Below, one piece after another: positions 6,597 through 24,231 of a stretch of DNA of 64,000 nt. A program made the translations under genes and the position numbers. Source of the stretch: Sinohyriopsis cumingii (Eukaryota; Mollusca; Bivalvia; Unionida; Unionidae); contig CM068842.1 of NCBI GenBank assembly GCA_028554795.2, positions 24,524,590-24,588,589 on the forward strand, read 5' to 3'. Each line of letters begins with the position of its first letter. Position 1 is the stretch's first letter. The notes beneath the pieces are model-generated. The model did not search any database. It was not told the origin of the DNA and was given only the letters and a program-made list of their open reading frames with translations.

Positions 6597-6804
6597 TTAC
6601 GTCTCTGTTCTCGTGGTCTGGATTTCTTGCCTTTCTTGACGGAATGAATTCTTCATTTTCAGACGACATTTCCTCTTCTTCCTGTTAATTTTGCTTGTTC
6701 TTTTTTCTTTTTCTTTGGGCAATCTGAAAACCAATGTCCTTTCTCCTGACAATAATAACAGGTATCTTGACACCTGTCTTTCTTTTCTCTTGTCTTTCTT
6801 ATGT
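6597..6804 (-). pseudogene. Old Polinton: 3' half of zinc-knuckle (CCHC) gene
   Basis: Read on the minus strand, this matches the C-terminal half of the zinc-knuckle gene at 8462-8932 of the intact element. It has one CCHC knuckle with the CYYCQEKGHW signature and a Lys/Glu-rich tail, now spread over more than one frame. The N-terminal half lies on the other side of the young element at 26556-26632. The two halves are separated exactly by the TTCGAC duplication, which shows that the young Polinton inserted into this gene. Confidence 0.75.
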
Positions 6805-6810
6805 TTCGAC
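6805..6810. repeat. Target-site duplication TTCGAC, left copy
   Basis: Six bases directly before the left terminus, identical to 26550-26555. Six-base duplications are the hallmark of Polinton integration. Confidence 0.93.
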
Positions 6811-6829
6811 AGTAGTGAAGGGGGGCACC

Positions 6830-7045
6830 CTACGGACAATGGGAATTAGCATTACAAAACCCCTTGGGCAAATCTACGGACAATGGAAATTTAACATGGA
6901 GAAAAATCGTGGGCAAATCTACGGACAAGGGGAATTAACATGGGAATAAATCGTGGGCCACTTTACGGACAAGGGGAATTTAACATGGCGATAAATCGTG
7001 GGTCACTCTACGGACAAGGGGAATTTAACATGGGATTTTTTTAAA
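6830..7045 (+). repeat. Subterminal tandem units (44-45 bp x 5) in left TIR
   Basis: Units start at 6830, 6874, 6919, 6963 and 7008, each with (C/T)TACGGACAA followed by an AATTTAACATGG-like core and an ATCGTGGGC-type end. The array is mirrored at 26315-26530. Repeated subterminal motifs often serve as transposase, integrase or terminal-protein binding sites; that role here is inference. Confidence 0.88.
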
Positions 7046-7106
7046 AAATTTTTAAAAAAAAAGGGGTAGGCAATTCAAAGACTATCTCTTTTCGAGAAAT
7101 ATGGCT

Positions 7107-7122
7107 GGCCCTGAAAAGGGCC
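7107..7122 (-). terminator. Histone-type 3' stem-loop in left TIR (outward)
   Basis: On the minus strand this is GGCCCT-TTTC-AGGGCC, preceded by CCAAA and followed by AGCCA. A purine-rich GAAAAGAGAT element lies about 15 bases downstream, at 7087-7096. The layout matches a metazoan histone mRNA 3' end: SLBP hairpin, then U7 target. It would end a transcript from the minus-strand mini-gene at 7232-7375. Confidence 0.72.
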
Positions 7123-7138
7123 TTTGGTTTATGTTAAT

Positions 7139-7160
7139 ATGCCCTTAACATAAAGGGCAT
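7139..7160. other. 8-bp hairpin ATGCCCTT/AAGGGCAT
   Basis: A perfect inverted repeat with a 6-base loop between the mini-gene and the TIR hairpin, followed by TTGCGACAT. The older element also has hairpins close to a GCGACATTAA-like sequence (near 30240). Its role is unknown. Confidence 0.45.
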
Positions 7161-7231
7161 TTGCGACATCTTCTTTTCCTCAAACTTCGTCTTACAGCAG
7201 GGCCATACATCAGAGTCCGCTTGAGGCAACC

Positions 7232-7375
7232 TTATCTCTCTATATAGACTCTTCTTATCCACAGGCTGCTGTTGGTCCTGTGGACAACGGTCCACTTGGA
7301 TCGGACATACATGAGCATGTCCGTCCTGAACATCATCGTTGACACAAGGGTTGAAGATTCAACGTCGGTCCACAT
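7232..7375 (-). CDS. Minus-strand mini-gene, 47 aa, unknown
   Basis: A TATAAATA box on the minus strand at 7421-7428 is followed about 46 bases later by the first ATG, which opens a 47-codon frame. Some 110 bases past its stop comes the histone-type hairpin at 7107-7122, so the unit looks like promoter, short ORF, hairpin, as at the right end of the element. A second open stretch without an early ATG runs from 7358 to 7134 in another frame and is richer in Cys and charged residues. The real product may therefore have been broken by a frame change. No known family was recognised. Confidence 0.4.
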   Translation of the reverse strand: MWTDVESSTLVSTMMFRTDMLMYVRSKWTVVHRTNSSLWIRRVYIER

Positions 7376-7420
7376 GTTGAGGCTCCGAGAATAGGTGAAT
7401 CAATGCAGTGAACGGCGCTT

Positions 7421-7428
7421 ATTTATAG
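7421..7428 (-). promoter_or_regulatory. TATA box for minus-strand mini-gene
   Basis: TATAAATA on the minus strand, with the first ATG about 46 bases downstream. Confidence 0.5.
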
Positions 7429-7525
7429 GGACAGGAAGGATTGAAACGGATTGAGTTCATTCACCAATCCTAACACGCGTTACAGAATTCAGTCAGCCCG
7501 CATCCAATCCGAAGAGAGCAGTCTG

Positions 7526-7548
7526 TGACGTCACGTAGTCTATATAGA
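7526..7548 (+). promoter_or_regulatory. CRE palindrome plus TATA box for gene at 7595
   Basis: A perfect TGACGTCA palindrome (CREB/ATF or AP-1 type) at 7526-7533 is followed six bases later by CTATATAGA at 7540-7548. The ATG is 47 bases downstream. An additional CCAAT lies at 7504-7508. With the minus-strand TATA at 7421 this is a divergent promoter. Confidence 0.6.
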
Positions 7549-7594
7549 TTCGCTAGCGCTTGTGTGCAGTCAATCTATGCGACAGTGATTCAAC

Positions 7595-8170
7595 ATGACG
7601 GAAACTCAGAAAACGATCCATTGGGGTGCACCAGCAGGGGAGACTGCCCAAGGGAACTCGGACTTACTTTCAGAAGAGGTGAATTGGGATTTTGTGGATT
7701 TTCTCTCCTCGCAAGAATTTGTTCCTGAACCTTCGTTACCTTCTTCATTACCGCAAGTGGAAAATTTTAGACAGAGACAGAAAGAAGAATTGGAGAAATT
7801 TATACAACGACAAAAGGAAGCGGAACAGGCTTTTCTCCTACAGCAACAGCAACAAGAAGAAGAGGTAAGAAAAAAACAACAACAGCAACAGCAAGAAGAA
7901 GTAGCAGCAAAGAAACAAGAGGGTGAAAATCAAACGGTCACGGTACTGTTGGACATTTTAGCAGAGTTAAGAAGTCTGAAACAAATGTATCAGACTTCTT
8001 TATCACGACCGAAGAGAATACGACCTTCCCGAGCTAAACACGTCAACCCTGTGACTAAGCCTACCGTACCACCCTTAGTGATTTCAACCCAATCATCATC
8101 AACATTACGCAGTCCAGAAGTAGGCCTTGGCCGTGGCAAAGGCATAAGGCAGTTAAAGTTGATTGCTTAA
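7595..8170 (+). CDS. Q/E-rich coiled-coil protein with histone-type mRNA end
   Basis: 191 aa. An acidic N-terminal part with NWDFVDF near residues 30-36 is followed by a long charged and Gln-rich coiled coil at about 55-110. A leucine-rich helix (LLDILAELRSL) lies near 117-127, then a basic, Ser/Pro-rich tail ending in GRGKGIRQLKLIA. No known family was recognised. The start is the first ATG after the TATA box at 7540. The transcript seems to end not at a poly(A) signal but at a histone-like stem-loop 28 bases after the stop. Its position next to the TIR and its CRE-containing promoter suggest an early or regulatory role; this is inference. Confidence 0.8.
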   Translation: MTETQKTIHWGAPAGETAQGNSDLLSEEVNWDFVDFLSSQEFVPEPSLPSSLPQVENFRQRQKEELEKFIQRQKEAEQAFLLQQQQQEEEVRKKQQQQQQEEVAAKKQEGENQTVTVLLDILAELRSLKQMYQTSLSRPKRIRPSRAKHVNPVTKPTVPPLVISTQSSSTLRSPEVGLGRGKGIRQLKLIA

Positions 8171-8197
8171 ACTCACCCCTACACCATGAAGAAAAAA

Positions 8198-8236
8198 GGC
8201 CCTTTTCAGGGCCACCCACATTTCTCGAAAAGAAAT
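8198..8236 (+). terminator. Histone-type 3' stem-loop and downstream element
   Basis: GGCCCT at 8198-8203, loop TTTC, AGGGCC at 8208-8213, then ACCCA at 8214-8218, preceded by an A-run. Stem length, loop and ACCCA flank match the metazoan histone mRNA consensus. GAAAAGAAAT at 8227-8236 lies about 14 bases past the hairpin, where the U7 snRNA-pairing histone downstream element normally sits. Confidence 0.82.
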
Positions 8237-8369
8237 ACAATTTCAATTTGCCAATAACTCAAAAAAAACCACCCATTTTACCCTTATAGTACGTGTCTGT
8301 GTATGAGTGCGTGAGTGTAGCTTCTTATTTTAAAATCAAAACTCAAAGACTCTTACCTTATATCATTCA

Positions 8370-8375
8370 TTTATT
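8370..8375 (-). terminator. Poly(A) signal AATAAA for zinc-knuckle gene
   Basis: AATAAA on the minus strand, about 90 bases past the stop of the zinc-knuckle gene. Here the end looks polyadenylated rather than histone-like. Confidence 0.5.
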
Positions 8376-8461
8376 CTTTTCTCCATTTTTTACAATCCAA
8401 TTCACAATTCACAACTCAACACTTTAATTAAAAGTTCATTGATTTCTTCTTTTCTCCTTGT

Positions 8462-8932
8462 TTAGTCTCTCTGTTTTTTGAATTTCTTCACCGTCACACT
8501 CTTTTCCTCTTCTTCCTCCTCGCTTTCTTCCCTTCTTCTTTTTTTCTCCTGTTTCTTTTTCTTCACCTGTCTTCTTTCTTCCTCAGAAGAATCCCTCTCT
8601 TCCTCCGAAGAATCCCTCTCTTCTTCTGAAGAATTCCTCTTTTCTTCTGACTCCTCTTGTTTCTTTTTTGGGCAATCTGGAGACCAATGTCCCTTTTCTT
8701 GACAATAATAACAGGTATCTTGACTTTTGTCTTTTTTAGTCCCTGTTTTTGTTCGTTTTTGACGGTCTGGACACTCTGAAGACCAATGCCCTTTCTTCTG
8801 ACAGATATAGCAAGTATCTTGACTTTTATCTCTAAAGGAAGGAGAGTAGTCCGTAGGCTGGTCTGAAGAGAATTTTCTAATGACCCCTCGCAAAGCTCTG
8901 ACGAAACGTTCCATCTGGTTAGTCTCTTCCAT
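8462..8932 (-). CDS. Two-CCHC zinc-knuckle, Glu/Ser-rich protein
   Basis: 156 aa from the first ATG of the predicted transcript (8932); the longer open frame above it lacks an ATG. Two retroviral-Gag-like zinc knuckles lie in the middle (CYICQKKGHWSSEC and CYYCQEKGHWSPDC), separated by a basic linker. Repeated acidic SSEEERD blocks and a Lys-rich C-terminus follow. Zinc knuckles of this kind bind single-stranded nucleic acid. Transcription is divergent from polymerase B, with TATA boxes less than 30 bases apart. The older Polinton kept this gene until the present element inserted between its two knuckles. Confidence 0.82.
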   Translation of the reverse strand: MEETNQMERFVRALRGVIRKFSSDQPTDYSPSFRDKSQDTCYICQKKGHWSSECPDRQKRTKTGTKKDKSQDTCYYCQEKGHWSPDCPKKKQEESEEKRNSSEEERDSSEEERDSSEEERRQVKKKKQEKKRRREESEEEEEEKSVTVKKFKKQRD

Positions 8933-8986
8933 CGTTGTGCTCGGCTTGAGAGTGAAATGAATAGTGAAAGGACAAGACACACACCC

Positions 8987-9018
8987 TTTTATATACGCTG
9001 GTCTGCTATGACTATAAA
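8987..9018. promoter_or_regulatory. Divergent TATA boxes (zinc-knuckle gene / polB)
   Basis: TATATAAAA on the minus strand at 8987-8995 and TATAAA on the plus strand at 9013-9018. The start codons are 55 and 48 bases away. A compact shared promoter. Confidence 0.65.
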
Positions 9019-9066
9019 GTAGTTTATGGTGTTTGAACTTGAGTCATTTGACTTTTTGCTTTCAAG

Positions 9067-12000
9067 ATGAAACGATCCCATTCATTCGAGAAGAAAGAAG
9101 AAGAAGAAAGTAAGAGGCAGAAACGTGATCTATCGCCTCGTACCAGGGCTGAAATCTTGGCACAAATTCATGCCAGTGATTTTGAAGAGGACATGAGTGA
9201 ACCAGAATCCGAAACCTCTAAACCAAGTTCACCACCCTTAGTTAACCCTGAAAAGTACTATTCCATTCGAGAGACGGAAAAGCGCTCCTCTAGAAAATTT
9301 AGAACCACGGCTTACAAATACACGGTGAAGTTTAAAGATTTCAAGGCTGAAGTGCCGTTAGAGAAAGCAGAAGTGTTCATCACCGAGGTGTGGGATTCTT
9401 TGCTCACCGCACTCAAGCGACAATGTCAACCCAAAGAAGACGATCGCTTGAGACTTTCCATACAACACGACGGTTTGAAATCCCCTGTTTGGATCGAGTT
9501 TAGCACCCCTGCAGAATTGACTGCTTCCAAAGTCATGGACAAGATTCAACACGTACAACAATCTAATGATCAGTTTGACATCACCGATGGTAAAGCCACA
9601 CTGGACATGACCCACGTCTCTCCTCCTCAAGGGACAGGACGCAAAAAGATGTTATTGGTGGACGACCTTCGCAACACCAAAACAAGTCTCGTCCGAATTG
9701 ACAACCCTCATGACCAGATGTGCTTAGCCCGTGCCATCGTGGTGGGACGAACCTATGCCAACAAGAACGACACGGTAGAATGGAAAAGAACCTGGGACAC
9801 TATTCAACGTTCCGACCGAGCCAAACAACGAAATGAAGCAGAACTCCTGTTACAACAAGCCGGACTGCCCAAAGACACACCCTGCGGCATTCCTGAGATG
9901 CAAAAATTGCAAGATGTCCTAGCTCCACGATACACCTTGAAAGTGCACCCTCAAGAAGTGCGCGGACCTCTATTGTTTCGAGGGCAAGACTTTAAGGACG
10001 GAAAATACATTCATGTCTATTATCACGATGACCATTTCGATACGATTACCACTATCACTGGATTCCTGGGATACAGTTATTACTGTGAGAAATGTGACCA
10101 TGGTTATAACAATCGAGAGCAACACAAGCATTGTGGATCGAAATGCACAGGATGTTTGGCCTCTTCACCCTGTCTGAGCGAAGAACCAGTGCCTTGTTCA
10201 ACTTGTCTGCGCACGTTTGTCAGCCCTACCTGTTACCAACAACATTTGATGACGCAAGGTTCACAGAAGAAATGCGCTTGTCAACTGCTGAGATTGTGCT
10301 CTACGTGTGAACAAGTCATACGTACCAATAATACCAAGGCACACGTATGTTCAGGAAAGAAAAAATGTCACATTTGTCACCACATCGTGGACTTGGAACA
10401 CCAATGTTACGTGCAAAAATACCAACCCCCACCAGAGAAAGAGGACGGTCACAAGAAGAAAGGCAATTTCATCTTTTTCGATTTCGAATGCATGCAAGAG
10501 ACCGGCATTCACATTCCTAATTTCTGCGTGGCTCATCGAGCGTGCGAGAAGTGCATTCAAGAACCTATCTTTAGTCATTGCCCTCACTGCAGCAAGATTC
10601 CTGGAGGACGTGAAAAAATCTTTCGGGGACCTAACACGCTAGCCGATTTCGCTCGATGGGTCTTAGACCCCATCGACAAGACGTGGAGCCAAGAGGACAT
10701 CGAACGTTACGGAGATTGTCATCGTCATGCCACGGTGATGGCTCACAATTTCTCCGGATACGATGGACAGTTTCTTTTGAGGCACTATACGGAACAAGGC
10801 ACCGAGCGTCCTAAAGTGACTTTGAACGGAGCCAAAATCATTTTCATGCAAGTGGGACAAGTGCAGTTTAAAGATTCGATGAGTTACTTGGCCATGCCTT
10901 TGAGTCGAATGCCTAAAACGTTTGGAATGACAGAAATGACTAAAGGGTACTTTCCACACTTTTTCAATACGGAAGCCAATCAACACGCCGTTCTACCCCA
11001 TTTGCCTGAGGCTCACTATTACGACCCCGACAACATGCGTACCGAACAACGAGAAGCTTTCTACGCTTGGTACCAGGCTCACGCCTCGGACCCTTTCGAC
11101 TTTCAGGAAGAAATGCTAAAGTATTGTCGTTCCGACGTGGACATTTTACGGCGTTGCTGTGGAAAATTTCGAGAACTGTTCATGGAACACGGAGGGGTCG
11201 ATCCTTTGAAAGAAGCTTGCACCATTGCCAAAGCGTGTTCCTTAGTGTATCGACAACGATTCATGCCTGAAAACACCGTGGCTGTCATCAGTCCTCAAAC
11301 GACCCACTTTGTCAAGCGTCAATACTCGGTCAAAGCCCTACGTTGGTTACATTACTTGTGCGACAAGGAAGACAAGTGGATTCAGCATGCTCGCAACGGA
11401 GGGGGCGAAAAGACCATCGGAACGTATTCGGTCGATGGTTGGGACTTAGAAAACCCCAAGATCGTGTACGAGTTTAACGGTTGCTTATTTCACGGATGTC
11501 CCGTCTGTTACCCTGACCGTGGCACCAAGAATCAGTTTTTGCAACGAACCATGGAAGACTTGTACCAGGACACTTGTCAGCGACGCCTAAAGTTAGAACA
11601 GCAAGGATACCAAGTGGTGGAAATGTGGGAACACGAGTACGATCACCGTATGAAAACCGATCCCGAGTTTAAACGCCTCGTGGAAAGTTACCAGTTCATG
11701 GACCCGCTGAACCCGAGGGATAGTTTGTACGGAGGAAGGACCAATGCCACCTGTTTGCTGTACCAAGCCGACGAAGAGAAAGGAGAAGAAATCAAATACT
11801 TGGACGTGTGTTCGCTGTATCCCTACGTGTGCAAATATTGTCGCTTTCCTGTAGGGCACCCGCAATTGTTCACGGAACACATCGACCTGAAAAACATTCG
11901 ACAATACGAAGGCTTGATCAAGTGTAAAGTTTTGCCTCCCACGAACCTATACCATCCCGTCTTACCTCACCATTGTCAAGGCAAACTGATGTTTCCCTTG

Positions 12001-13120
12001 TGCCGAAACGTGCAACCAAGACCAACCTTGTCAGCACACCCAGGAAGAACGTGCCTTGACGGGAACCTGGGTCAGCGTAGAATTGTTCAAAGCTCTGGAC
12101 ATGGGATACCAACTGTTAGAAGTGTACGAAATTTGCCACTTTCCCAAGACACAACAATACCACAAGGGTGATCCCAGTCAGAAAGGCATTTTCGCTGACT
12201 ACGTGGATGCCTTTTTGAAACTGAAGCAAGAAGCCAGCGGCTATCCTTCCTGGTGTCACACTCCCGAAGACCAAATACAATTCAAAGAGAAATACTACGA
12301 ACAAGAAGGCATCACTTTAGACCACATCGAGAAAAACGAAGGCAGGCGATCGTTTGCCAAAGTGATGTTAAATTGCTTGTGGGGTAAAATGGCACAACGA
12401 CCGTGTTTACCCAAGACGGAATATTTGACAGAACCTTCCCGTTACTTCCAGATGATTCACGACAAAACCAAATACATGAAACACGTGGACGTCGTTCGAG
12501 AGAATTTGATCTTGGTCAATTACGAAGAAGATCTGGACTTTGTGCAAGACGACCCTTTTGGAAATGTCATCATTGCGGCTTACGTGACAGCCCATGCTCG
12601 CTTAAAATTGTACGAGGCTTTAGAACTGTTAGGGGAACGCGTCCTGTACTTTGACACGGACAGTTGCATTTACATCCATCACCCGATTCAACATCACCCT
12701 AACATCGAAGGAGACCGTTTAGGAGCCTGGACAGACGAGCATCCCGACGACAAGATTTTAAGTTTCGTCAGTGGCGGTCCCAAAAATTACGGCTACGAAT
12801 ACCGGGACAAACAAGGAGAAGTGCACACGACGTGCAAAGTGAAAGGACTGACTCTGAATTATCGTACCAGTCGAGTGGTCAACTTTGGGGTATTGAAAGA
12901 AGCCTTGCAATCGGGAGAGGATGGAAACTTTAAAGTGACCACCTATCAACCGAAGAAGATTGTACGTTTACCCACTCACCACATCGTCAGTCGACCCTTG
13001 GAAAAAATCTATCAAATTGTATACCAGAAGCGAGTTCGACTTCCCAATCATTTCACCTTACCGTACGGTCACGTCGGTATTGGTCTGTATATAAAAAGGA
13101 ACCCTAGGCAAAATCGATAG
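9067..13120 (+). pseudogene. Protein-primed DNA polymerase B, one frameshift
   Basis: Family B polymerase of the protein-primed (pPolB) type that copies Polinton genomes. The first frame (9067-12171) has a Cys/His-rich zinc region at about residues 340-450, Exo I FFDFEC near 467, Exo II around AHNFSGYDG near 559, Exo III YCRSDVD near 685, a YGGR motif near 887 and polymerase motif A YLDVCSLYP near 911. The frame then changes near 12,006-12,010 and the rest (to 13120) carries motif B (KVMLNCLWGK, 12360-12390) and motif C YFDTDS near 12650. All catalytic motifs are present, so only the frame break stands against function. It could be a true lesion or a sequencing indel in a short A-run. Confidence 0.93.
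13088..13098 (+). promoter_or_regulatory. TATA box of the BIR gene, inside the end of polB
   Basis: TATATAAAAAG overlaps the last codons of the polymerase gene. Placing the next promoter inside the upstream gene's end is a recurring habit of this element. Confidence 0.6.
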
Positions 13121-13324
13121 TTCATTGTGACTACCAAGACCGAGCGAACAAGATGAATACTTTCAGAGAAACACAGAACAAGTTGTTTAGAAGGGCACAA
13201 TTCAAGTGTGAGGCTTCGGAAGTGGAATGCGAGATGTGAGCCTTGCGATGGGTACGATGCTGTACCTTGTGACCTGAGCGATGCCGTAAAGCATCATTGG
13301 AACTTTAGTGCCCCTACCCCTATC

Positions 13325-13792
13325 ATGGAAAGTGATGCTGTGCGTGTCAAACCTGTGGGATGCGAAAGTGATGCCGCTCGTCCTCTTGGACATTTTACTG
13401 GGTTTCGTTTTAAAGGGGAATGTTCACCTTCACGTCTACCCCCCTACGGATGTCATCCAGCCCTGAGCAAACTCCTACCCATGTCACTCAACCCTCATCG
13501 AAACGAACCTGTGAAAGACGAATATTCGTTCCCTGTGCGTTTGTCGGAATACTGCGACTTTGAAAATCGTCTTCAATCGTTCAAAGGAAAATGGCCTAAG
13601 TATCTGGGAGGACCGACCCCCGAAGAATTAGCCAGAGCCGGATTTTTCTACTTGGGCGAAGGAGATAAAGTCAAGTGCTTCAGTTGCGGTGTGTCACTTC
13701 ACCACTGGGAACCGCAAGATTCGGCCTACGTAGAACATGCTCGATGGTCACCGAATTGTCATTACTTACCCTTAGTGGGACCGAGACATTGA
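13325..13792 (+). CDS. BIR-domain (IAP-type) protein
   Basis: The last 85 residues form a BIR domain. A leading R-x-x-SF-x-x-W segment is followed by ELARAGFFYLGEGDKVKCF and zinc ligands in exact C-x2-C-x16-H-x6-C spacing. BIR domains of inhibitor-of-apoptosis proteins bind caspases or IAP antagonists. There is no RING or second BIR, so it is a single-domain form. The open frame extends upstream to 13208 without ATG. The first ATG after the TATA box (13153) opens a 28-codon frame in another phase, which hints at a frame break near the N-terminus; 13325 is the first in-frame ATG. Host-gene capture to delay apoptosis is inference. Confidence 0.85.
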   Translation: MESDAVRVKPVGCESDAARPLGHFTGFRFKGECSPSRLPPYGCHPALSKLLPMSLNPHRNEPVKDEYSFPVRLSEYCDFENRLQSFKGKWPKYLGGPTPEELARAGFFYLGEGDKVKCFSCGVSLHHWEPQDSAYVEHARWSPNCHYLPLVGPRH

Positions 13793-13820
13793 AGTAACTT
13801 CTTACCATAATAATCTGTTC

Positions 13821-14276
13821 ATGGATACTTTACAAGAGAACATTCGTGCTTTGCCTGTGGAGTTGAGAGAACGCATTTATCGAGAACTGGTTAAAATACA
13901 AGTGAAACGTAAAGAACAATTGCATCCGTTACGTCACCGGTGTTTGAACCACTGGTACCTGAAAGCTATACAAGGATTGATTCAATTGAAAGTGTTCCAT
14001 CGAACAGACATTGATCAACGATCCTCTAGTTTTCAAAAGGATTGGTTTGGTATGGACGATTGTAGTTACATCATTGTAAACGTACTGCATCGAATTCCAG
14101 AGGAAGAGTTAACGAATTACCAACATCTTGAACACAATGTCAACTTAGTGAAAGAGGAAACTTCTGAACGAATTGTAATGTGTAGATTAGTGACTCAACG
14201 ATTTAAATTCGACACTGAAGTAAAACCATGTTTGTGCAAAGAGTACATTTCTTGTGTCAGACCAAAGAGAATTTAG
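13821..14276 (+). CDS. Unknown protein, first of a tandem duplicate
   Basis: 151 aa. The N-terminus (LPVELRERIYRELVK) faintly resembles an F-box-like helix, but this is not firm. Then come HPLRHRCLNHWYLKAIQGLI and a region with paired hydrophobic strands. No family was recognised. A second copy follows directly at 14289, and the gene at 14752 shares some of the C-terminal pattern (IP-x-x-EL followed by V-x-x-LV). No TATA box is obvious upstream. Confidence 0.65.
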   Translation: MDTLQENIRALPVELRERIYRELVKIQVKRKEQLHPLRHRCLNHWYLKAIQGLIQLKVFHRTDIDQRSSSFQKDWFGMDDCSYIIVNVLHRIPEEELTNYQHLEHNVNLVKEETSERIVMCRLVTQRFKFDTEVKPCLCKEYISCVRPKRI

Positions 14277-14288
14277 TATGACCTATTC

Positions 14289-14807
14289 ATGGATACTTTA
14301 CAAGAGAACATTCGTGCTTTGCCTGTGGAGTTGTGAGAACGCATTTACCGAGAGCTGGTCAAAATACAAGTGAAACGTAAAGAACAATTGCATCCGTTAC
14401 GTCACCAGATCTTTAACCACTGGTACCTGAAGGGTATAAGAGAACTGATTCGTCAGAAATTGTTTCAGTGGTCAGACCTTGTTCAATACTTCCAGGCCCC
14501 CGATGATTCACGTGTTGATCATTTTGGTTACTTCGAGATTCACCTAGAGCAACCCATTGAGGAAGACGAGGTAAAGGATTACCAACATATTTTACGTGGA
14601 ATCTACTTAGCGGAAGAGGAAACTTCTAATCGAACTCTGACGTTTCGGTTACAGTATGCAAGATTTACATTACCCACTGGAAAACGAACATCACTGGCTA
14701 GAAAGTACGTGTATTCTTTTCGAAACAAAGAGACTATAAAAACAGGCAGCTATGCCACGACTTATGTCGAATGTAATCCAACAGATTCCGTGGAAGGAAC
14801 TCAATGA
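14289..14807 (+). pseudogene. Second copy of the 13821 gene, early stop
   Basis: The first 118 bases (14289-14406) are about 97% identical to 13821-13938, but a TGA replaces a sense codon at codon 16. After base 118 identity falls sharply, to roughly two thirds by eye. The remaining frame stays open to 14807, although no ATG restarts it. Either the copy is dead, or a recent gene-conversion event moved the 5' part between copies and the stop is recent. Confidence 0.65.
14735..14741 (+). promoter_or_regulatory. TATA box for the gene at 14752
   Basis: TATAAAA close upstream of the ATG at 14752. A later start in the same region is possible because the spacing is short. Confidence 0.4.
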
Positions 14808-14976
14808 CCATATTCAAACCGTGGATCGTTACCATCGATTATTGCAAGAACTGTATCCATTCAATTTGGGACGACAAGTGGTGTGTGTCTTAGTGACTTG
14901 TTTTCTGGGATTTCGTTTACCAGCCGATTCTTTGTGGACTCTTTACGATCAGTACTTACCACCTCCATGGCCTTAA
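14752..14976 (+). CDS. Small unknown protein, 74 aa
   Basis: The protein reads IPWKELNDHIQTV in its first third and has a hydrophobic segment around CVLVTCFLGF. It overlaps the next gene's ATG at 14967 by ten bases. A recognisable homologue stands in the old element at about 27385-27572, in the same order, which supports a real gene. Function unknown. Confidence 0.6.
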   Translation: MPRLMSNVIQQIPWKELNDHIQTVDRYHRLLQELYPFNLGRQVVCVLVTCFLGFRLPADSLWTLYDQYLPPPWP

Positions 14977-15516
14977 ATGGTCACGAAAAACTCCTTTTGC
15001 TCAAAGCCTTGCGGTTTCATCTGGATACTTCTCGACCTCAACAGGAAAAAAAGATTCGTCAACTTTTAGCTACCCAAGACGTGTATGACGATGTGTGTGT
15101 AGCTTGTGACTTACACCCTCATTGGACAGATGTTCGTGACTGGAAAAAGGGGGGTTTTGAGGTTTGGACCCAAGAAGTGGCCCAGTATGCACAAGAGTTG
15201 TTCAAGGAAAAAAGTTACTTTTCAACCTGTGTTAGTGACGGTGCCAGAAGAACCCGTCACCGAGAACAACCACTCGCTTCAGGACAGGACTGTCATGGAC
15301 ATGCCTGAAAGGTCATTCCGGGAGGACACTTGTGTGACAATACCTCATGTAGAGACTGTAAGAACATTACACACTGTCCCTAGGACATCTTGGTTACCCA
15401 AAACATGTTGTACAGACACTTGTTTATATTCCACTTTGATCGCTTTGCTGTGTTTTATATTCCTGTACATCACTATTTGGGTTGTATGTATTTTTGTCTT
15501 TCGTGTTCATATTTGA
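14967..15516 (+). CDS. Helical protein with C-terminal membrane anchor, frame change
   Basis: From ATG 14967 the first frame (to 15308) codes a helical domain with KLLLLKALRFHL, DVCVACDLHPHW and WTQEVAQYAQELF. After about 15205 the protein-like signal moves to the +1 frame, which runs to 15516 and ends with a strong hydrophobic anchor (LIALLCFIFLYITIWVVCIF). An A6 run lies at the switch. The decayed homologue at 27577-28091 shows the same order and the same +1 offset, so the switch may be a programmed frameshift, two overlapping genes or an inherited lesion. Family not recognised. Confidence 0.6.
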
Positions 15517-15523
15517 AACATTC

Positions 15524-15529
15524 AATAAA
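15524..15529 (+). terminator. Poly(A) signal AATAAA
   Basis: AATAAA eight bases after the stop of the membrane-anchored protein. The old copy keeps one in the same place at 28104-28109. Confidence 0.6.
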
Positions 15530-15544
15530 CGTGTTCTGAAAAAG

Positions 15545-15552
15545 TATATAAA
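15545..15552 (+). promoter_or_regulatory. TATA box of the packaging ATPase
   Basis: TATATAAA 55 bases before the ATG at 15600. Confidence 0.65.
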
Positions 15553-15599
15553 CTCTTGTCTTGTTTGTTTTTCGTGTCACAAGTGACATTTCTCACACC

Positions 15600-16334
15600 A
15601 TGGCTACCTCTGCTCCCTCTTCCTCTACTGTCAAAGTCATCGACGAACACTTAGATCGTGCCAGTTGGGAGGCTTTGTATCTTCGCCATCCCTTTAACAT
15701 GCTCATTGCTGGACCTAGCGGTTCAGGCAAAACCGAATTCGTCAAACGTTTGATCGAGCATAAACATCATTTGATCGATCGGCCCCCTCAACGGATCGTG
15801 TGGTGTTACAAAGAGTGGCAATCGGCGTACAGCCTTTTGCGAGAAAGTCAAGGCGATTCCATCGTGTTTGTGGAAGGCATTCCTAAAGAAGACGACGGCA
15901 TCGTCTCTGACTCCCGTCTAACCCATTTGGTCATTTTCGACGACATGTTAGGAGAAGACGAAGAAGAAATTAAATTGTGGTTCACGCGCAAAGGGCATCA
16001 CCGTAATGCCAGTGTCGTTTACATCACCCAAAATTTGTTTCAACAAAGTAAAGCCCATCGCACCATCAGTCTCAATGCGCATTACGTGGTCTTGTTTAAA
16101 AGCCCTCGAGATAAATCGCAAGTGCAAGTCTTAGCCAAACAGTTAGGAACGCCTTGGCTGACTCAGGCGTACGACGATGCCACTCAAACGCCACACGCCT
16201 ATTTACTCGTCGATTTGAAACCTACCACTCCCGAGGATTTGCGATTTCGTACCCACTTGTTTCACCACTGGTGCCAAGACGGAGGGCCTGTCCTGTACAC
16301 GTCTCCGTCCTCGACTTCATTTCACTCCCCATGA
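15600..16334 (+). CDS. Genome-packaging ATPase (FtsK/HerA, A32-like)
   Basis: 244 aa. Walker A GPSGSGKT at residues 38-45 and Walker B HLVIFDD near 109-115 mark a P-loop ATPase of the type that pumps DNA into virions of Polintons, virophages and relatives. A conserved YITQN motif (sensor-like) and an arginine-rich stretch follow. The start was taken at 15600, after the TATA box; 13 upstream codons in the same open frame would lie in the leader. It appears intact. A decayed homologue lies at 28177-28880. Confidence 0.92.
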   Translation: MATSAPSSSTVKVIDEHLDRASWEALYLRHPFNMLIAGPSGSGKTEFVKRLIEHKHHLIDRPPQRIVWCYKEWQSAYSLLRESQGDSIVFVEGIPKEDDGIVSDSRLTHLVIFDDMLGEDEEEIKLWFTRKGHHRNASVVYITQNLFQQSKAHRTISLNAHYVVLFKSPRDKSQVQVLAKQLGTPWLTQAYDDATQTPHAYLLVDLKPTTPEDLRFRTHLFHHWCQDGGPVLYTSPSSTSFHSP

Positions 16335-16343
16335 AAAAAAATC

Positions 16344-16350
16344 TATAAAA
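16344..16350 (+). promoter_or_regulatory. TATA box for the gene at 16392
   Basis: TATAAAA 48 bases before the ATG, just after the ATPase stop. Confidence 0.6.
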
Positions 16351-16391
16351 ACCTCAGACCCTTTTTCGTCTGTCTCACACTCAGTGCGAAC

Positions 16392-17339
16392 ATGACGTCC
16401 CTTCAGTCGCATCTGACCGTCAAATTGATTCGTGCCTTGTATGGCATCAGTCGAGAAAAGGATCCACAAACACGAGCTCGTGTCTTAGAAGCTAGCCTCA
16501 AAGAAGTCTTACGATGGTTCACGGTGACGGCACGTCAATTACTCCAAGGAATCATTCAGATTCCTCATCAAACCCAACGCTTTTTCGATCGAAACAAAGT
16601 CGCTTTGGTCCAACTGGCCGATCCCCGCATCGACACTCAAACCAAAAAACAAATCATTTTGAAACCTGGAGGGAGCGGTACTCTAGGAGGGGTCATCATT
16701 CGCTCACTCTTAAGATGGGATCCTAATGCCCCCAAAGTTATCCCTAAGACAAAAGTTCAACGAAGCCCCAAGAAGAAAAAGAAAAAGACCAGGTCCCCAA
16801 GAAGAATAACTTCTCCAGTGGCGGGACCCTCCTCTTACCAGACACCACCCCGAAAAAAGAAAAGAAGCCCCCAGAAAAAGAAACAGAGAAAAAGTCCTCA
16901 GAAAAAGAAAAGTCCACAGAAAAAGAAAACTAGTCGCAAGAGAGGCACTGCGGCCAGGACGCAGCCTTACACTCGCAAACCACGACCTGCCACAGCGTCT
17001 CCGACAGCCTCACGTTTGTCCACTTCTCCGTTGATGTCACCAGGAACTGAAGAGTACTTGGAGACGTTGATCACACCAAGAACTTCTCCGTTGATGACCC
17101 CCAAAAGAACTTCCCCAGTGGCAGGACCTTCCAATTTAGCGGCAGTGGCTGCTGCTCACAAAGTACCTTCTCCCAAAATCAAAGTCCATGAAAGATCGGG
17201 CATGTTACAAAGTTTACTGGATTTGTCCAAGCAAGAACTGGCTCGATTTAGTCCGTTACGTACCCCTGCACGACGTGTCATGCCTGTCCTCAAACTGATA
17301 CGACGTAAAGACAATCAATGGCGACGCGTTCCAGTATAA
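16392..17339 (+). CDS. Basic core-like protein, SPKKK-rich
   Basis: 315 aa. A conserved N-terminal domain of about 115 residues ends in KKQIILKPGGSGTLGGVIIRSLL, a Lys then Gly-Gly then hydrophobic pattern seen in small core or capsid-associated proteins of adenovirus-like elements. A long tail of SPKKKK, SPQKKK and S/T-P repeats (about 120-270) resembles histone H1 or chromatin-binding tails. A C-terminal helix with LLDLSKQELARFSPL follows. It is likely a DNA-condensing virion protein; that is inference. It is flanked by TATA boxes and is present decayed at 28930-29760. Confidence 0.68.
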   Translation: MTSLQSHLTVKLIRALYGISREKDPQTRARVLEASLKEVLRWFTVTARQLLQGIIQIPHQTQRFFDRNKVALVQLADPRIDTQTKKQIILKPGGSGTLGGVIIRSLLRWDPNAPKVIPKTKVQRSPKKKKKKTRSPRRITSPVAGPSSYQTPPRKKKRSPQKKKQRKSPQKKKSPQKKKTSRKRGTAARTQPYTRKPRPATASPTASRLSTSPLMSPGTEEYLETLITPRTSPLMTPKRTSPVAGPSNLAAVAAAHKVPSPKIKVHERSGMLQSLLDLSKQELARFSPLRTPARRVMPVLKLIRRKDNQWRRVPV

Positions 17340-17343
17340 AAAA
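17335..17343 (+). promoter_or_regulatory. TATA box for the pX-like gene
   Basis: TATAAAAAA overlaps the stop codon region of the preceding gene, about 55 bases before ATG 17398. Confidence 0.6.
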
Positions 17344-17397
17344 GGCCTGTGACCGAGTAGGATATCAGTGTTTTTTGGTGCTCCTGAAGACTCAAAG

Positions 17398-17784
17398 ATG
17401 TCACCCTCCAGAAAACCCCAAGGAAAGAAAAGGAAAGGACTGCCACCACGTTTAGCCAAACATGGGGACATGTTATCTGTCCTGTCCAAAGCTTCTCCAC
17501 CCCTACGAAAAAAACTCATTCAAACGGCCTCCAAAGAGGTCATCGATACCGTGTGCGAATGTTGTTTGAACGTCTTGAAAGGCACGATCCCTTTGTCCAA
17601 ACACCAGAAACAATGCTTAGGCAAACATCGTCACGTTCTTCGGAAAATGGTTCAAAAGAAAATTCCCATTCGTCAAAAAAAGAAGATGTTGGTCCAACGT
17701 GGAGGCATTTTACCTCTCTTGTTAGGCCCCATACTGAAAGGAGTCTTGGGAACCATGTTGGGAGGACTGGTGGGAGCAAGATAA
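17398..17784 (+). CDS. Small basic protein with GG-hydrophobic tail (pX/Mu-like)
   Basis: 128 aa from the ATG following the TATA box. Very basic, with a Cys pair (CECC) near the middle and a C-terminal QRGGILPLLLGPILKG segment rich in Gly and Leu. The KK-x-L-x-x-RGG-hydrophobic pattern is shared with Polinton/adintovirus proteins compared with adenoviral pX (mu). Likely a virion core or membrane-active component, by analogy only. A decayed homologue is at 29828-30092. Confidence 0.65.
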   Translation: MSPSRKPQGKKRKGLPPRLAKHGDMLSVLSKASPPLRKKLIQTASKEVIDTVCECCLNVLKGTIPLSKHQKQCLGKHRHVLRKMVQKKIPIRQKKKMLVQRGGILPLLLGPILKGVLGTMLGGLVGAR

Positions 17785-17833
17785 AAAAGCCCTCGGAAGT
17801 CCCAAGATCTCAGAATCGACCCCTGACAACCCC

Positions 17834-18544
17834 ATGGAAGGACGAAAACTAGCTTTAGTGCCTTACAAACGATGGATGGAATACCATCGGTGGCAAGAAC
17901 AACGCACCCCGCATTTACCTCCCAATCCCAATTTGAGCGAGATGTCCCAGTTACAACACGAATTGCAATCCTTGATGGATCGCCAAGATTTGTCCGAAAC
18001 AGAAAAATCGCAAAAGTACGGTCAACTCTTGCAAAGACTGCAACTCTTTCACCAGAAAGCTTTAGACGAAACAGCTTTACCCACTCTGAAAGATTTTAAG
18101 ACCTTGATGAAAAGTCCAGCACCATCATCATCATTACCACCACCACCACCACTACTGTCATCCCCAACCGTCACCAGAGATGCTACCCCACGAAGACCTG
18201 AGGAAGAAGAGACGCGCGAAGTGTTTCAAACACCGTCAGCAGCTCCCATTTCGAGTAAGATTGCAGCATCCTTATTGACCCCGTCCCCCACACCCCAACG
18301 AGAAGAAATGAAAGCTTGGGTTAAAAAGATGATGTCCACACCTCCTTCGACAGAAGTGAAAAAGAAAGAAGAGAAACCAGAAGCGAAAAAAGAAAAGAAA
18401 ACCAAAGCCATTCCATTGCCACCTCCACCACCACCACTACCTTCGACTTCTACTCCCGTAGCCCATCGGACACGTAAATCCGTTTCCAAACCACCCTTTC
18501 GACCCACCCAAAGTAGCATCACCGAAGAGTGGGTAACTTATTAA
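17834..18544 (+). CDS. Coiled-coil, proline-rich Polinton protein
   Basis: 236 aa. The N-terminus has LALVPYKRW, then a coiled-coil segment (about 35-85, with LSETEKSQKYGQLLQRLQ), then low-complexity Pro, Ser and Lys/Glu tracts including two polyproline runs, and a C-terminal FRPTQSSITEEWV. This layout recurs between the pX-like gene and the integrase in related elements as far as I recall, but the function is not known. A minor virion or assembly protein is a guess. Confidence 0.6.
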   Translation: MEGRKLALVPYKRWMEYHRWQEQRTPHLPPNPNLSEMSQLQHELQSLMDRQDLSETEKSQKYGQLLQRLQLFHQKALDETALPTLKDFKTLMKSPAPSSSLPPPPPLLSSPTVTRDATPRRPEEEETREVFQTPSAAPISSKIAASLLTPSPTPQREEMKAWVKKMMSTPPSTEVKKKEEKPEAKKEKKTKAIPLPPPPPPLPSTSTPVAHRTRKSVSKPPFRPTQSSITEEWVTY

Positions 18545-18565
18545 CACACCAACCAACACAAAAAA

Positions 18566-19678
18566 ATGGAAAAAGTCTTAGCCAGCATTTACTACGATCC
18601 CTCCCATCCTGCAGGTTACGCAGGAGTTCAAAAATTGTATCGTGCTGCCAAAACGCGACTGAAAAGTCTCCGTTTACCTCAAGTGCAACGATGGTTACAA
18701 GAACAAGCTACCTACACTTTGCACAAACCCATTCGACGCAAGTTTGCCAGAAGTCGCACCCGAGTGGAAGGCATCGATCATCAATGGCAAGCCGATTTAG
18801 CCGATGTCTCTCATTTGGCCAGCTACAATCGTGGCTACAAATATTTGTTTTGTGTCATCGACGTCTTTTCCAAATTTGCCTGGATCGTGCCCTTGACTTC
18901 CAAATCGAGCAGCGAGTTAGTGCGAGCCCTGCAACGGGTGTTGAAACAAAGCGGTCGTCGCCCTCTTCGATGGCAAACGGACAAAGGCACCGAATTTCTG
19001 AACCAAGCTTTCCAAAAAGAATTAAAGAAACGTGACATTCATTTTTTTACCACCGAGAATCCCGAAACCAAAGCCAGCATCGTGGAACGTTTTCAACGTA
19101 CTTTGAAAGAACGCATGTGGAAATATTTTACGCATCACCACACTCTGAAGTACATCGACATCTTACCGCACCTGGTGCAAGCGTACAACCAATCTTACCA
19201 TCGAAGCATCGGACGTGCCCCGCAAGACGTGACTCCTGACAACGAAGTGCTGGTGTTTGAGCGCCTGTTTGGTACGTCCCCGACGAGGGCTGTCCCCAAG
19301 AAAAGTGGAGAGTTGACCGTAGGAGATTGGGTGCGCATTGGCAAAACCAAACGCACTTTTGACAAAGGTTACTTACCTAACTGGACGACCGAACTGTTTC
19401 GCGTCACTGGACGAGTGCATGGCCGTCATCCTGCCGTCTATAAATTGGAAGACATGAACGGAGAAGTACTCAAAGGAACGTTTTATTTGAACGAGTTACA
19501 ACGTGTCACCAAAAAAGAAGACGACGTGTACGACATCGAAAGCATTCTCGAACGCAGAACCCGTAAAGTGGGCAAACGACGTGTCAAAGAAGTCAAAGTA
19601 CGTTGGAAAGGATATCCACCCAGTTTCGATTCTTGGATCGACGCTTCGCAAGTCATCGACTATAAAAAGAAGAAGTGA
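18566..19678 (+). CDS. Retroviral-type integrase with chromodomain
   Basis: 370 aa. The DDE catalytic triad is visible: D77 (QADLAD), D139 (QTDKGTEF) and E174 (SIVERF). A C-terminal chromodomain covers about 322-368 (YDIESILERR, KVRWKGYP, DSWIDA). Integrase inserts the linear genome with 6-bp duplications, consistent with the TTCGAC pair. Chromodomains on integrases read histone marks and steer insertion, here possibly toward silent chromatin such as the older Polinton it landed in. Frame intact, no stops. Confidence 0.95.
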   Translation: MEKVLASIYYDPSHPAGYAGVQKLYRAAKTRLKSLRLPQVQRWLQEQATYTLHKPIRRKFARSRTRVEGIDHQWQADLADVSHLASYNRGYKYLFCVIDVFSKFAWIVPLTSKSSSELVRALQRVLKQSGRRPLRWQTDKGTEFLNQAFQKELKKRDIHFFTTENPETKASIVERFQRTLKERMWKYFTHHHTLKYIDILPHLVQAYNQSYHRSIGRAPQDVTPDNEVLVFERLFGTSPTRAVPKKSGELTVGDWVRIGKTKRTFDKGYLPNWTTELFRVTGRVHGRHPAVYKLEDMNGEVLKGTFYLNELQRVTKKEDDVYDIESILERRTRKVGKRRVKEVKVRWKGYPPSFDSWIDASQVIDYKKKK

Positions 19679-19683
19679 CCATC

Positions 19684-20100
19684 ATGCCCTTTCACACATC
19701 AGACGCAGCTACGTCGACCACTCCTTCTTCCCCTAGTTCTTCTGTGCAAGATTTACAAAAACAACCCTTGTGGGTGTGGTGTGGAGAACGTGTGCCTAAA
19801 ACGCAAATCGTCTTTTTCTGCCAAATCTTCGTGGTGTATTGTGTCATCGGGGCAGCCATTGCCAATTTGAGTTTGCAACAAGGAGACAAACAATTGTGGA
19901 CCATTTTATTGAGCAGTTGCATCGGTTACCTGCTTCCCAATCCCTCCCTGAAATTCTCCTCGAACGGGAACGTTGTGTCCAGTGCCAGTGCCAGTCACCA
20001 CTCCAACAACAACCACAACCAGAACCCCATTTTGGGCGGAGACACGCCTCTGACATCCACTAATATTCCCTCGGACAGCCACAGAACTCTGGAATTATGA
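19684..20100 (+). CDS. Two-helix membrane protein
   Basis: 138 aa. Hydrophobic segments KTQIVFFCQIFVVYCVIGA and WTILLSSCIGYLLP form two predicted membrane spans joined by a short NLSLQQGDKQ loop, followed by a Ser/Asn-rich tail. The ATG at 19684 was chosen because codons before it start with GTG. The stop overlaps the next ATG (ATGA). Proteins of this kind sit before the minor capsid gene in other Polintons; a virion membrane or entry role is possible but unproven. Confidence 0.65.
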   Translation: MPFHTSDAATSTTPSSPSSSVQDLQKQPLWVWCGERVPKTQIVFFCQIFVVYCVIGAAIANLSLQQGDKQLWTILLSSCIGYLLPNPSLKFSSNGNVVSSASASHHSNNNHNQNPILGGDTPLTSTNIPSDSHRTLEL

Positions 20101-21056
20101 GTCACCAAAACCAATTTTACTTAACCTTACCCAGTGACAGTTCCATGGAGGTGTTTCCCAACAACACGTTGTGCTGTTACACGGCCAAATTACCTCAGGC
20201 CATCCCCTTAGATCACGAAGCCCATTGGGAAGTGGCTTTAGTGGAAATGATTTACCCTACACAAATCAAAAACATCACTGAAACTCAAAACACTTTTGAC
20301 ATCGAAATTTTGGACCCAGCACTGCAGCAAACCATGACGGGCAGTCCTCAACATAACTCACATCTTGCAAAGGACCTATTACCCCGCAGCAGTGACTCTT
20401 CTCCTCTTTTCGTTTATCACTTTAAAATTAACTCAGGCCATTATTTTAGTGGTCAACATCTGGTGGAAGCCATCGCTGACAAATTCTATGCAACCTTTGA
20501 CAAAGTTCTGACCACAGCAAAAAAACGTGTCACCATCGAGTACCACAAACTGTCTCACCGTCTACTCATTAAATTTCAAAGTGAGGAAAAAAGTATACGT
20601 ATTAAATTTTGCCCTGAATTGTATGACATTTTGGGTGGAGACCTCAATATGATCACGGATAAGCAGACCAAAAAAATTATTAAAATGGCAGAGATTGACA
20701 ACGACATGCATTTTGCAAGGTATTTTCGTTTCCCGGTAGAACTGAACCAAGGACTGAATTTGATCTTCGTGTACTCCGATGTGGTGGAGTATAACGTGGT
20801 GGGACACACCTCCGTACCGTTACTACGTGTCATTCCTTTCAAAGTAAATTCTGCCACGGTCACTGACGAGGAAGGTGGAAACACTTACCACGTCCACCGC
20901 GAATTTGTCCATCCTCACTATTTGCCGGTCAGCAAGTCGTATTTGGACACGGTCAACATTGCTATAAAAGGAGATCTGGGACAAAATATTCCATTCACCA
21001 AAGGAAAAGTCACGGTGAAACTCCATTTTCGAAAACGGTTCTCTCACGACTCGTAA
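20097..21056 (+). CDS. Minor capsid protein (penton-like, PX)
   Basis: 319 aa. It begins with the characteristic FYLTLPSDSSMEVFPNNTL segment and then the LP-x-x-I-x-L...WEVALVEMIYP block of Polinton PX proteins, predicted in the literature to be the single-jelly-roll penton. Its place just upstream of the pVI-like and major capsid genes fits. No stops or frame breaks are visible. A TATA-like box inside its 3' end (20963-20970) may serve the next gene. Confidence 0.85.
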   Translation: MSHQNQFYLTLPSDSSMEVFPNNTLCCYTAKLPQAIPLDHEAHWEVALVEMIYPTQIKNITETQNTFDIEILDPALQQTMTGSPQHNSHLAKDLLPRSSDSSPLFVYHFKINSGHYFSGQHLVEAIADKFYATFDKVLTTAKKRVTIEYHKLSHRLLIKFQSEEKSIRIKFCPELYDILGGDLNMITDKQTKKIIKMAEIDNDMHFARYFRFPVELNQGLNLIFVYSDVVEYNVVGHTSVPLLRVIPFKVNSATVTDEEGGNTYHVHREFVHPHYLPVSKSYLDTVNIAIKGDLGQNIPFTKGKVTVKLHFRKRFSHDS

Positions 21057-21063
21057 GTAAGTC

Positions 21064-21480
21064 ATGTATCCAGTGTACCGAGGGGTGGCTCGACAGCGAG
21101 GACACGGTTTAGGAGACATGTTAAAATCGGCCTTTCGTTCGGTGGCCCCAGTCTTGAAACCGATGGTGACACGCGGATTGCACGCCTTGAAAGATGCGGC
21201 ACTGACGCAAGGCAAAGAATTTCTCCAAAATGTCATCATCGACAAACAAAACCCTAAAGAAGCCTTCATGAGGGCTGGCAAAAATGTCTTGCTGCAAACG
21301 GGCAAAGACATTTTAGGCCGACGAGACACACCTATAAATGCCCTGCACGTTACCGAGTCAGGCATTCAGCAAGGACAAGGCAGAAAGAGACGACGAAGAA
21401 AACACCCTTTCACCAGACTTCAAGCGAGAAAGGCCAAGAAAAGAAGAACCGTTCGAGACTTAGACGTTTTCGATTATTGA
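21064..21480 (+). CDS. pVI-like basic minor virion protein
   Basis: 138 aa. N-terminal GHGLGDMLKSAF and VAPVLKP form a Gly-rich amphipathic helix, typical of Polinton proteins placed between minor and major capsid genes and compared with adenovirus pVI. The C-terminus is strongly basic (RKRRRRKHPF and KAKKRR), suggesting DNA contact. Identity as a pVI analogue is by position and pattern. Confidence 0.68.
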   Translation: MYPVYRGVARQRGHGLGDMLKSAFRSVAPVLKPMVTRGLHALKDAALTQGKEFLQNVIIDKQNPKEAFMRAGKNVLLQTGKDILGRRDTPINALHVTESGIQQGQGRKRRRRKHPFTRLQARKAKKRRTVRDLDVFDY

Positions 21481-21493
21481 AACACAGAACAAA

Positions 21494-22810: not shown

Positions 22811-22815
22811 AAGCC

Positions 22816-23301: not shown

Positions 23302-23332
23302 AGAAGAAGAAAAAAAAACAACACAGAAAACA

Positions 23333-23893: not shown

Positions 23894-24140
23894 ATTGAAA
23901 ATTGAAAAAAAATGTTTGTGATTTGAAAAAAATTGTTAGATGTTATAGTGATGGATTATTGTTAAAAAATGTTAGAGTTGTTGTTGTTTAGTGTTAAGTG
24001 ATTTATGAATAAAAATGTTGTGTCTTGAAAAAAATGCCTTTGTGGTTTGTTTAGCTATAAGACTGTTGGATTGATGCTCTTTGATTTCTTACTATCCCTC
24101 TCATGACATTCACTGAACGTTGCGGCTCGAAAACCGTGTG
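23894..24140 (+). other. 3' region of protease gene with poly(A) signal
   Basis: AT-rich untranslated region with AATAAA at 24008-24013. It contrasts with the histone-type ends of the next three genes. Confidence 0.55.
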
Positions 24141-24174
24141 GGGGATGTTTTCCTTCACGTCCGCGCTTTCACTT
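24141..24174 (+). promoter_or_regulatory. Mini-gene promoter module, copy 1
   Basis: GGGGATGTTTTCC followed by TCACGTCCGCGCTTTCA and TTTAA. The same module precedes the next two mini-genes (25000 and 25745), with a TATA-like sequence at the end of each. Confidence 0.65.
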
Positions 24175-24231
24175 TAAGAACCGGTTTGTTTCCAGTCTAA
24201 CCATCCATTGTCGACTCATCCTCCTACGAAG

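Follow-up and report, generated by a model that had tools for sequence, protein, structure and literature searches.

As far as is known, histone-type 3′ ends occur almost exclusively on replication-dependent histone genes. A first-pass annotation of the window (the whole 64,000-nt stretch of Sinohyriopsis cumingii DNA analysed here) had proposed such ends for four short genes of a Polinton. The locus raises the question of whether these signals are those of the host's own histone genes and, if they are, what the non-histone genes of a mobile element would gain from them.

Histone-type 3′ elements at the Polinton ends

The genes belong to an element with TIRs and a 6-bp target duplication (Table 1), a PolB and an RVE integrase (Pfam DNA_pol_B_2, 4.8e-31; rve, 2.7e-14), the latter carrying a chromodomain (Chromo, 1.1e-7), and an A32-like packaging ATPase (Pox_A32, 1.3e-7, above cut-off). 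An adenain-type protease is matched weakly, under the cut-off (Peptidase_C5, 0.0084), and PolB in this copy (9067-13120) is divided between two overlapping frames. The frame at 21767-22567, which from its position and from general background we take to be the candidate for the double jelly-roll major capsid protein (MCP), had no match in a Pfam search. Named relatives of the integrase come from oysters and lancelets; in IMG/VR no relative was found by way of the ATPase, PolB, the integrase alignment, the g7595 alignment or the MCP-like protein. The Polinton also contains a BIR (inhibitor of apoptosis) domain protein (13325-13792, Pfam 2.8e-24) and a duplicated small gene at 13810-14729, with 209-nt repeats that are 86% alike and proteins about 50% identical. 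Its insertion site is within a zinc-knuckle gene, that of an older Polinton relic; around the ATPase the two elements share 71% nucleotide identity (1,321 columns). The relic's counterpart of g25095 is broken by a repeat (32564-32729) that is found again at 60828-60993. Outside the elements there is a 44-bp tandem repeat array at 46619-47578, with short arrays also at 54342, 57605 and 60453.

Table 1. Coordinates of the Polinton, its outer genes and the histone-type elements in the window
Feature	Position	Strand	Details
Older Polinton relic	6699-6784 and 26557-33100		surrounds the 19.7-kb Polinton
6-bp target duplication TTCGAC	6805-6810 and 26550-26555		flanking the Polinton
Polinton-like element	6811-26549	+	19.7 kb; TIR pair and flanks
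Left TIR	6811-7127		mismatches up to 7127 only at 7043, 7054 and 7055
3′ element of leftward gene	7082-7127	-	hairpin 7107-7122, GAAAAGA 7087-7093; RF00032 35.6 bits
Leftward small gene	7145-7375	-	end 22 nt before stem; TATAAA (-) at 7422
g7595	7595-8170	+	191 aa; 20 homologous proteins
3′ element of g7595	8193-8237	+	hairpin 8198-8213, GAAAAGA 8227-8233; RF00032 41.2 bits, E 9.6e-9
H2B-type promoter element, 5′ of g24232	24141-24171	+	1 mismatch
g24232	24232-24591	+	119 aa, Gln-rich
3′ element of g24232	24617-24661	+	hairpin 24622-24637, spacing 14; RF00032 29.3 bits, below gathering score
H4 promoter identity, 21 nt (L116:1421)	24931-24951	+	about 70 nt 5′ of the g25095 H2B-type element
H2B-type promoter element of g25095	25000-25030	+	exact 24-nt match (25003-25026) to host H2B promoter; TATAAA at 25032
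g25095	25095-25403	+	102 aa; conserved C-terminus CVCGARPGRCxH, Cys/His cluster
3′ element of g25095	25425-25470	+	hairpin 25430-25445, GAAAAGA 25459-25465; RF00032 31.0 bits, below gathering score
Fourth, weaker H2B-type promoter copy	25676-25706	+	
H2B-type promoter element of g25832	25745-25775	+	exact 24-nt match (25748-25771) to host H2B promoter
g25832	25832-26221	+	129 aa, Lys/Glu-rich
3′ element of g25832, within right TIR	26233-26278	+	hairpin 26238-26253, GAAAAGA 26267-26273; RF00032 35.6 bits
Right TIR	26233-26549		inner edge coincides with 5′ edge of Histone3 match
Decayed hairpin	33059-33092	+	3/6 pairs broken, GAAAAGA kept; 3′ of the relic's g25095 counterpart

The Rfam model Histone3 (RF00032) matches five sites in the Polinton, all of them gene ends on the sense strand, with scores of 41.2 to 29.3 bits; three exceed the gathering score of 34, while two (31.0 and 29.3) fall below it. 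Searched against Rfam at E up to 1, the window gave a single match to anything other than Histone3 (mir-87, 0.86). The plus-strand hairpins RGCCCTTTTCAGGGCY after g7595, g24232, g25095 and g25832, which had been proposed from the letters alone, are indeed present, 27, 30, 26 and 16 nt past the stop codon. All four gene ends were confirmed, but a fifth copy, on the minus strand in the left TIR, where it ends a leftward gene, had been overlooked. With up to two mismatches allowed, the 16-nt hairpin occurs six times in the window against 0.09 expected, the sixth copy (31482) being in the older relic.

A purine-rich element had been placed 10-15 bases beyond the stem; by measurement, GAAAAGA starts 13 nt past the stem in four of the five modules and 14 nt past it in the g24232 module. 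The surrounding 10-mer, CTAGAAAAGA, is exact in the g24232 and g25095 modules and has one change, CTCGAAAAGA, in those of g7595 and the TIRs. Paired stem changes (GGCCCT/AGGGCC versus AGCCCT/AGGGCT) do show the covariation ascribed to them, but at one pair only, and fixed between module classes. The start of the last gene is similarly qualified: its longest ATG frame begins at 25613, yet a TATAATA at 25777 favours the proposed 25832. An ATTTGCC-like sequence further downstream is common to the modules, which therefore look like related copies of one cassette, not independent cases.

At both TIRs the inner edge coincides with the 5′ edge of the Histone3 match, so that an outward-facing histone element is found at either end of the Polinton. 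Two of the five modules thus lie where replication or packaging signals are expected, and the palindromes might be DNA signals or generic terminator hairpins (for replication, packaging or transcription stop) that resemble histone ends by convergence. A palindrome, however, needs neither the orientation of the TTTC loop, nor the ACCCA flank, nor GAAAAGA at the histone spacing of 13 nt, and all five modules face a gene 3′ end. Two patterns for similar hairpins matched four loci and one locus, respectively, in IMG/VR; their frames look phage-like, and none of the five had a Histone3 match at the gathering score. Convergence would also leave the histone promoter matches described below unexplained, and we consider it hardly probable at all.

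The relic contains a further hairpin, AGCCCTATTTAGGGCT (31482-31497), after a TATA box and a short frame and with no GAAAAGA close behind; it is perhaps another decayed histone-type end. A weak U7-like hairpin nearby (31519-31549; 16.2 bits, E 4.3) was judged to be due to chance.

Pfam searches of the small proteins encoded by the outer genes detected no histone domain, and none of these genes was found to encode a histone. PHROGs matches of these proteins and Pfam matches of g25832 were set aside as below or near noise and fitting low-complexity sequence. The g7595 protein is predicted to form a long helix (residues 53-136) with a basic stretch near residues 139-148 (model mean pLDDT 68.5). 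In one of its homologues, P0133, the predicted protein continues beyond the usual end of g7595; this extension would be compatible with a hairpin and downstream element in the metagenome copy, the last stem pair being left open by codon degeneracy. The leftward gene is interrupted in the window by a stop codon (7232-7234), while copies elsewhere in the genome have an open frame of about 76-78 codons; a Pfam search of two relatives gave no match. A survey of 67 genome loci (L044-L110) and the window looked for open frames starting with ATG, at least 40 codons long and ending no more than 45 nt before a TIR-type hairpin. Such a frame was present in 35 loci, and encoded an MWT-starting protein of 66 to 80 aa in 27, a shorter start of the same in two, the right-end Lys/Glu-rich protein in five and another frame in one. 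Of the 29 loci found gene-first, 14 have an uninterrupted frame of 76 or 78 codons running from ATGTGGAC, a start string that is missing from the remaining 15. Our guess is that the outer small genes are early genes of the Polinton.

Correspondence with the host histone genes

Histone genes of the host are arranged in tandem repeats of about 8.3 kb, with 114 H4 matches in total; the repeats are dispersed over many small contigs (C310 to C1131 and others), and there are a few damaged H4 copies. The fetched histone pieces contain H3, H4 and H2B, together with a fourth gene reading MSGRGKGGKVK, which we take to be H2A. At 20 loci, all 58 hairpins at host histone 3′ ends are followed by GAAAAGA 13 nt past the stem, within CTAGAAAAGA. 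The comparison of the downstream element with host histone genes, suggested in the first-pass annotation, ended in identity: the same hairpin and the same 10-mer at the same spacing, a purine-rich element at a fixed distance and in host form. RF00032 gives 35.9 bits for host H3, 37.7 for H4 and 38.2 for H2B, and 29.3 to 45.6 for Polinton modules. Beyond GAAAAGA, the best similarity to host histone 3′ regions has a score that was reached by 192 of 2000 shuffles, and capture of a whole histone 3′ region from a host gene is unsupported, as the likeness there is not above that of shuffles. A host U7 was not matched by RF00066 or by one pattern, neither of which gave a match in any control genome, and the SLBP domain (PF15247), which introns may split, was matched neither in the host nor in any control genome; these negatives therefore weigh neither way.

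The correspondence extends to promoters. Exact matches of at least 13 nt were sought between one 3.3-kb histone piece (L116) and the entire window. The longest were one of 24 nt from the H2B promoter, found at both 25003 and 25748, and one of 21 nt from the H4 promoter, found at 24931; the hairpins came next with 17 nt. Chance was taken to account for a 16-nt match between H3 coding sequence and position 19674, and for AT-rich 13-15-mers. Promoter elements common with host histone genes are thus present at three right-end genes. The 17-nt core of the H4-type element is found also in L006, L010 and L011, and the H2B-type element recurs, inverted, before the host H2A-like gene. In the Polinton this H2B-type element stands about 5 nt from the TATA box, versus about 28 nt in host H2B. 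It is absent from the divergent promoter shared by the leftward gene and g7595, in which a perfect CRE-like TGACGTCA is located at 7526-7533.

In 10 mononucleotide shuffles of the window, the H2B-type element with up to five mismatches was matched five times, versus five times in the window itself, four of these at 0 to 2 mismatches; the H4-type element with up to three mismatches was matched once in 10 shuffles, versus one exact match in the window. The 24-mer from the H2B promoter has 6,015 exact copies in the genome, compared with none for its reversed control. Set against 114 H4 matches, this number indicates that the histone promoter code is mostly outside histone arrays in this genome. 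The first 100 copies listed include 18 pairs on the same strand at distances of 736 to 1,032 bp (the window pair: 745 bp), which is what this Polinton family would be expected to show. At up to three mismatches, the promoter element was detected in 22 of the 75 genome loci described below, namely those with right ends, and in two of 30 g7595 loci.

Upkeep of the hairpin in genome copies

To survey the host genome (2.9 Gb) we scored 75 of 589,472 loose candidates with Histone3; these matches include neither the window modules nor the host histone genes, which were found otherwise. All 75 exceed 34 bits and all lie in related Polintons, 71 being assigned by nearby protein similarity and four (L052, L066, L084 and L096) by the promoter element. 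No core histone gene is present in the fetched stretch of any of the 75 loci. Scanning these loci yielded 118 modules, 79 of them distinct as 51-mers, with the loop TTTC in 116 and 13-nt spacing in 117; the scan itself accepted only paired stems with a T[TC]T loop, a G/C second stem pair and AAAAGA nearby, so these features are not independent findings.

Absence of the hairpin from related elements would have told against the proposal; it is kept in copies of the g7595, g25095 and TIR modules. In 30 loci found gene-first, 29 of 31 g7595 ends have a fully paired hairpin and two have one mispair, and the left TIR modules are fully paired in 28 of 30, with one mispaired and one not found. In loci found by Histone3 first, the hairpin is fully paired in 42/49 g7595 ends and 12/16 g25095 ends; the 26 g7595 ends that are not themselves the Histone3 match comprise 20 fully paired hairpins, five with one mispair and one with two. 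The ends of g25832 carry it in 15 of 26 cases, ten of the eleven misses being low-identity (24-38%) matches of a Lys/Glu-rich query and the eleventh, L108, having one mispair.

Such retention might reflect youth. Protein searches revealed at least 150 copies of g7595 at 99-100% identity and at least 150 copies of an L010-like g25095, and a cassette acquired from a histone gene in a single event and then duplicated could persist as a functionless fossil, alike because the copies are young; the paralogous look of the modules and the flanking sequence they have in common would fit such a history. In five copies of g25095, third codon positions and the hairpin were compared with those of the window copy. 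In L010 and L057, third-position identity is 0.60 and 0.61, and the hairpin is identical at 16/16 positions; it is likewise identical in L013 (69% third-position identity), matches at 15/16 in L059 (86%), and matches at 14/16, with one mispair, in L009 (58%). An identical hairpin in copies that differ at about 40% of third positions is not what fossils would give, nor is spacing kept in 117 of the 118 modules or the loss of stem pairs in the dead relic. A gapped alignment of 28 g7595 copies is more favourable to fossils, the module being conserved only slightly above four-fold sites: identity within the hairpin is 0.98 to 1.0, against 0.93 for four-fold sites and 0.92 for the downstream element; the nucleotides that follow the stop codon reach 0.96 and those around TTTCAATTTGCC 0.94, and spacers and the final stretch have 0.73 to 0.81. 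An ungapped profile was discarded, as indels inflate its contrast with the flanks; the gapped profile is much less striking. These comparisons give good support for selection on the hairpin among g25095 copies but no more than a suggestion of it for g7595, and we regard the fossil explanation as quite improbable.

Poly(A) signals bear on whether the histone-type end is the only one in use. No AATAAA occurs within 300 nt after g7595, g24232, g25095 or g25832. The hexamer is found within that distance after four of 16 other Polinton genes (zinc knuckle, 86 nt; 15516, 7 nt; 21480, 238 nt; protease, 114 nt), but, as the other 12 also lack it, the contrast between histone-type and other genes is weak. 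ATTAAA occurs 256 nt after g7595 and 204 nt after g24232. Across the genome, AATAAA or ATTAAA is present no more than 40 nt before the stem in 12 of 95 modules, some of which may accordingly belong to copies that are polyadenylated. In a group including L045, L049, L058, L078, L088 and L099, AATAAA abuts the hairpin (AATAAAAAGGCCC); the poly(A) signal and histone element may overlap in copies of the L045 type. Both signals could then be in use, with histone-type promoters driving transcripts that are often polyadenylated at overlapping or downstream sites. The 83 modules that have no such hexamer argue against this, as do the four window genes, though with the reservation that most other Polinton genes are alike in this respect. 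We rate dual use as unlikely.

Probable imitation of histone genes and relation to known systems

We conclude, with a probability of about 0.8, that the small genes at both ends of the Polinton imitate the replication-dependent histone genes of the host. The main case is made by the host histone match, the g25095 comparison and the promoters. For three of the genes, judging from their sequences, the imitation is at both gene ends, in the 3′ element and in the promoter. Among the host genes seen, H2B is closest in both the TTTC loop and the 24-nt promoter element, which suggests that the histone code of the Polinton was derived from an H2B-like gene.

If the imitation is functional, transcripts of the outer small genes would be routed through the histone 3′-processing pathway, making use of SLBP and U7, and would lack poly(A). 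At the three right-end genes, the H2B/H4-type promoter element would add co-transcription with histone genes. The outer genes would be on while SLBP and U7 are active, that is in S phase, the germ line and the cleaving embryo, and their mRNAs would decay once replication stops; such cell-cycle timing would presumably benefit the Polinton. By contrast, at least the zinc-knuckle and protease genes carry poly(A) signals of the ordinary kind.

The elements could also be true SLBP targets that serve another purpose: in oocytes they could allow maternal mRNA to be stored and translated, or they could mediate recruitment to the histone locus body. SLBP is abundant at oocyte and cleavage stages, and an element that is copied in the germ line would gain most from expression at just these stages; promoter and 3′ elements acting jointly would suit recruitment to the locus body. 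This purpose would, however, engage the same machinery as S-phase timing, and sequence alone cannot separate them. We consider it possible, if on the doubtful side. Nearer to even odds, and still tentative, is a wider form of the imitation of histone genes, in which the Polinton family would constitute a shadow histone regulon: transcription and processing of its copies would accompany those of the histone arrays at every S phase in germ line and early embryo, possibly within the histone locus body, and the copies might compete with histone mRNA for SLBP and U7.

No earlier description of histone-type 3′ ends in Polintons appeared among the literature matches listed, which consisted of titles and abstract starts, with subscription literature mostly outside the search. 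The ‘Histoid’ genes of PMC11071296 are histone-like proteins and not 3′ elements, PMC6210712 reports that bivalve histone mRNAs have the stem-loop, with purine-rich elements nearby in some genes, and PMC7786107 mentions Histone3 in a study of a coronavirus genome.

If true, imitation of histone genes would represent a novel means by which a selfish element synchronizes its genes with host replication, through a histone code on non-histone genes. It would also provide a natural test of which sequence features suffice for U7/SLBP processing. Poly(A)-selected RNA-seq would miss such transcripts, and active Polintons could seem silent.

Among known systems, mimivirus and iridoviruses have hairpin-ended or unpolyadenylated mRNAs; a 3′ hairpin is common to these and to the Polinton, but theirs is not known to be the histone element that SLBP and U7 recognize. 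Some small DNA viruses rely on S-phase promoters, E2F sites for example, and tie their early genes to host replication, as the Polinton would; the viral link is transcriptional only, without histone 3′ processing. With the 3′ ends of animal histone genes (RF00032) the Polinton genes have in common the 6-bp stem, the TTTC/TTTT loop, the ACCCA-type flank and GAAAAGA 13 nt past the stem; they differ in encoding non-histones and in sitting in a dispersed mobile element. TIRs, a 6-bp target duplication, PolB, a retroviral-type integrase with a chromodomain and an A32-like ATPase are common to this element and to Polintons/Mavericks and adintoviruses. As far as the literature matches listed go, what sets it apart from them is the histone-type 3′ ends, and in part promoters, of its small outer genes.
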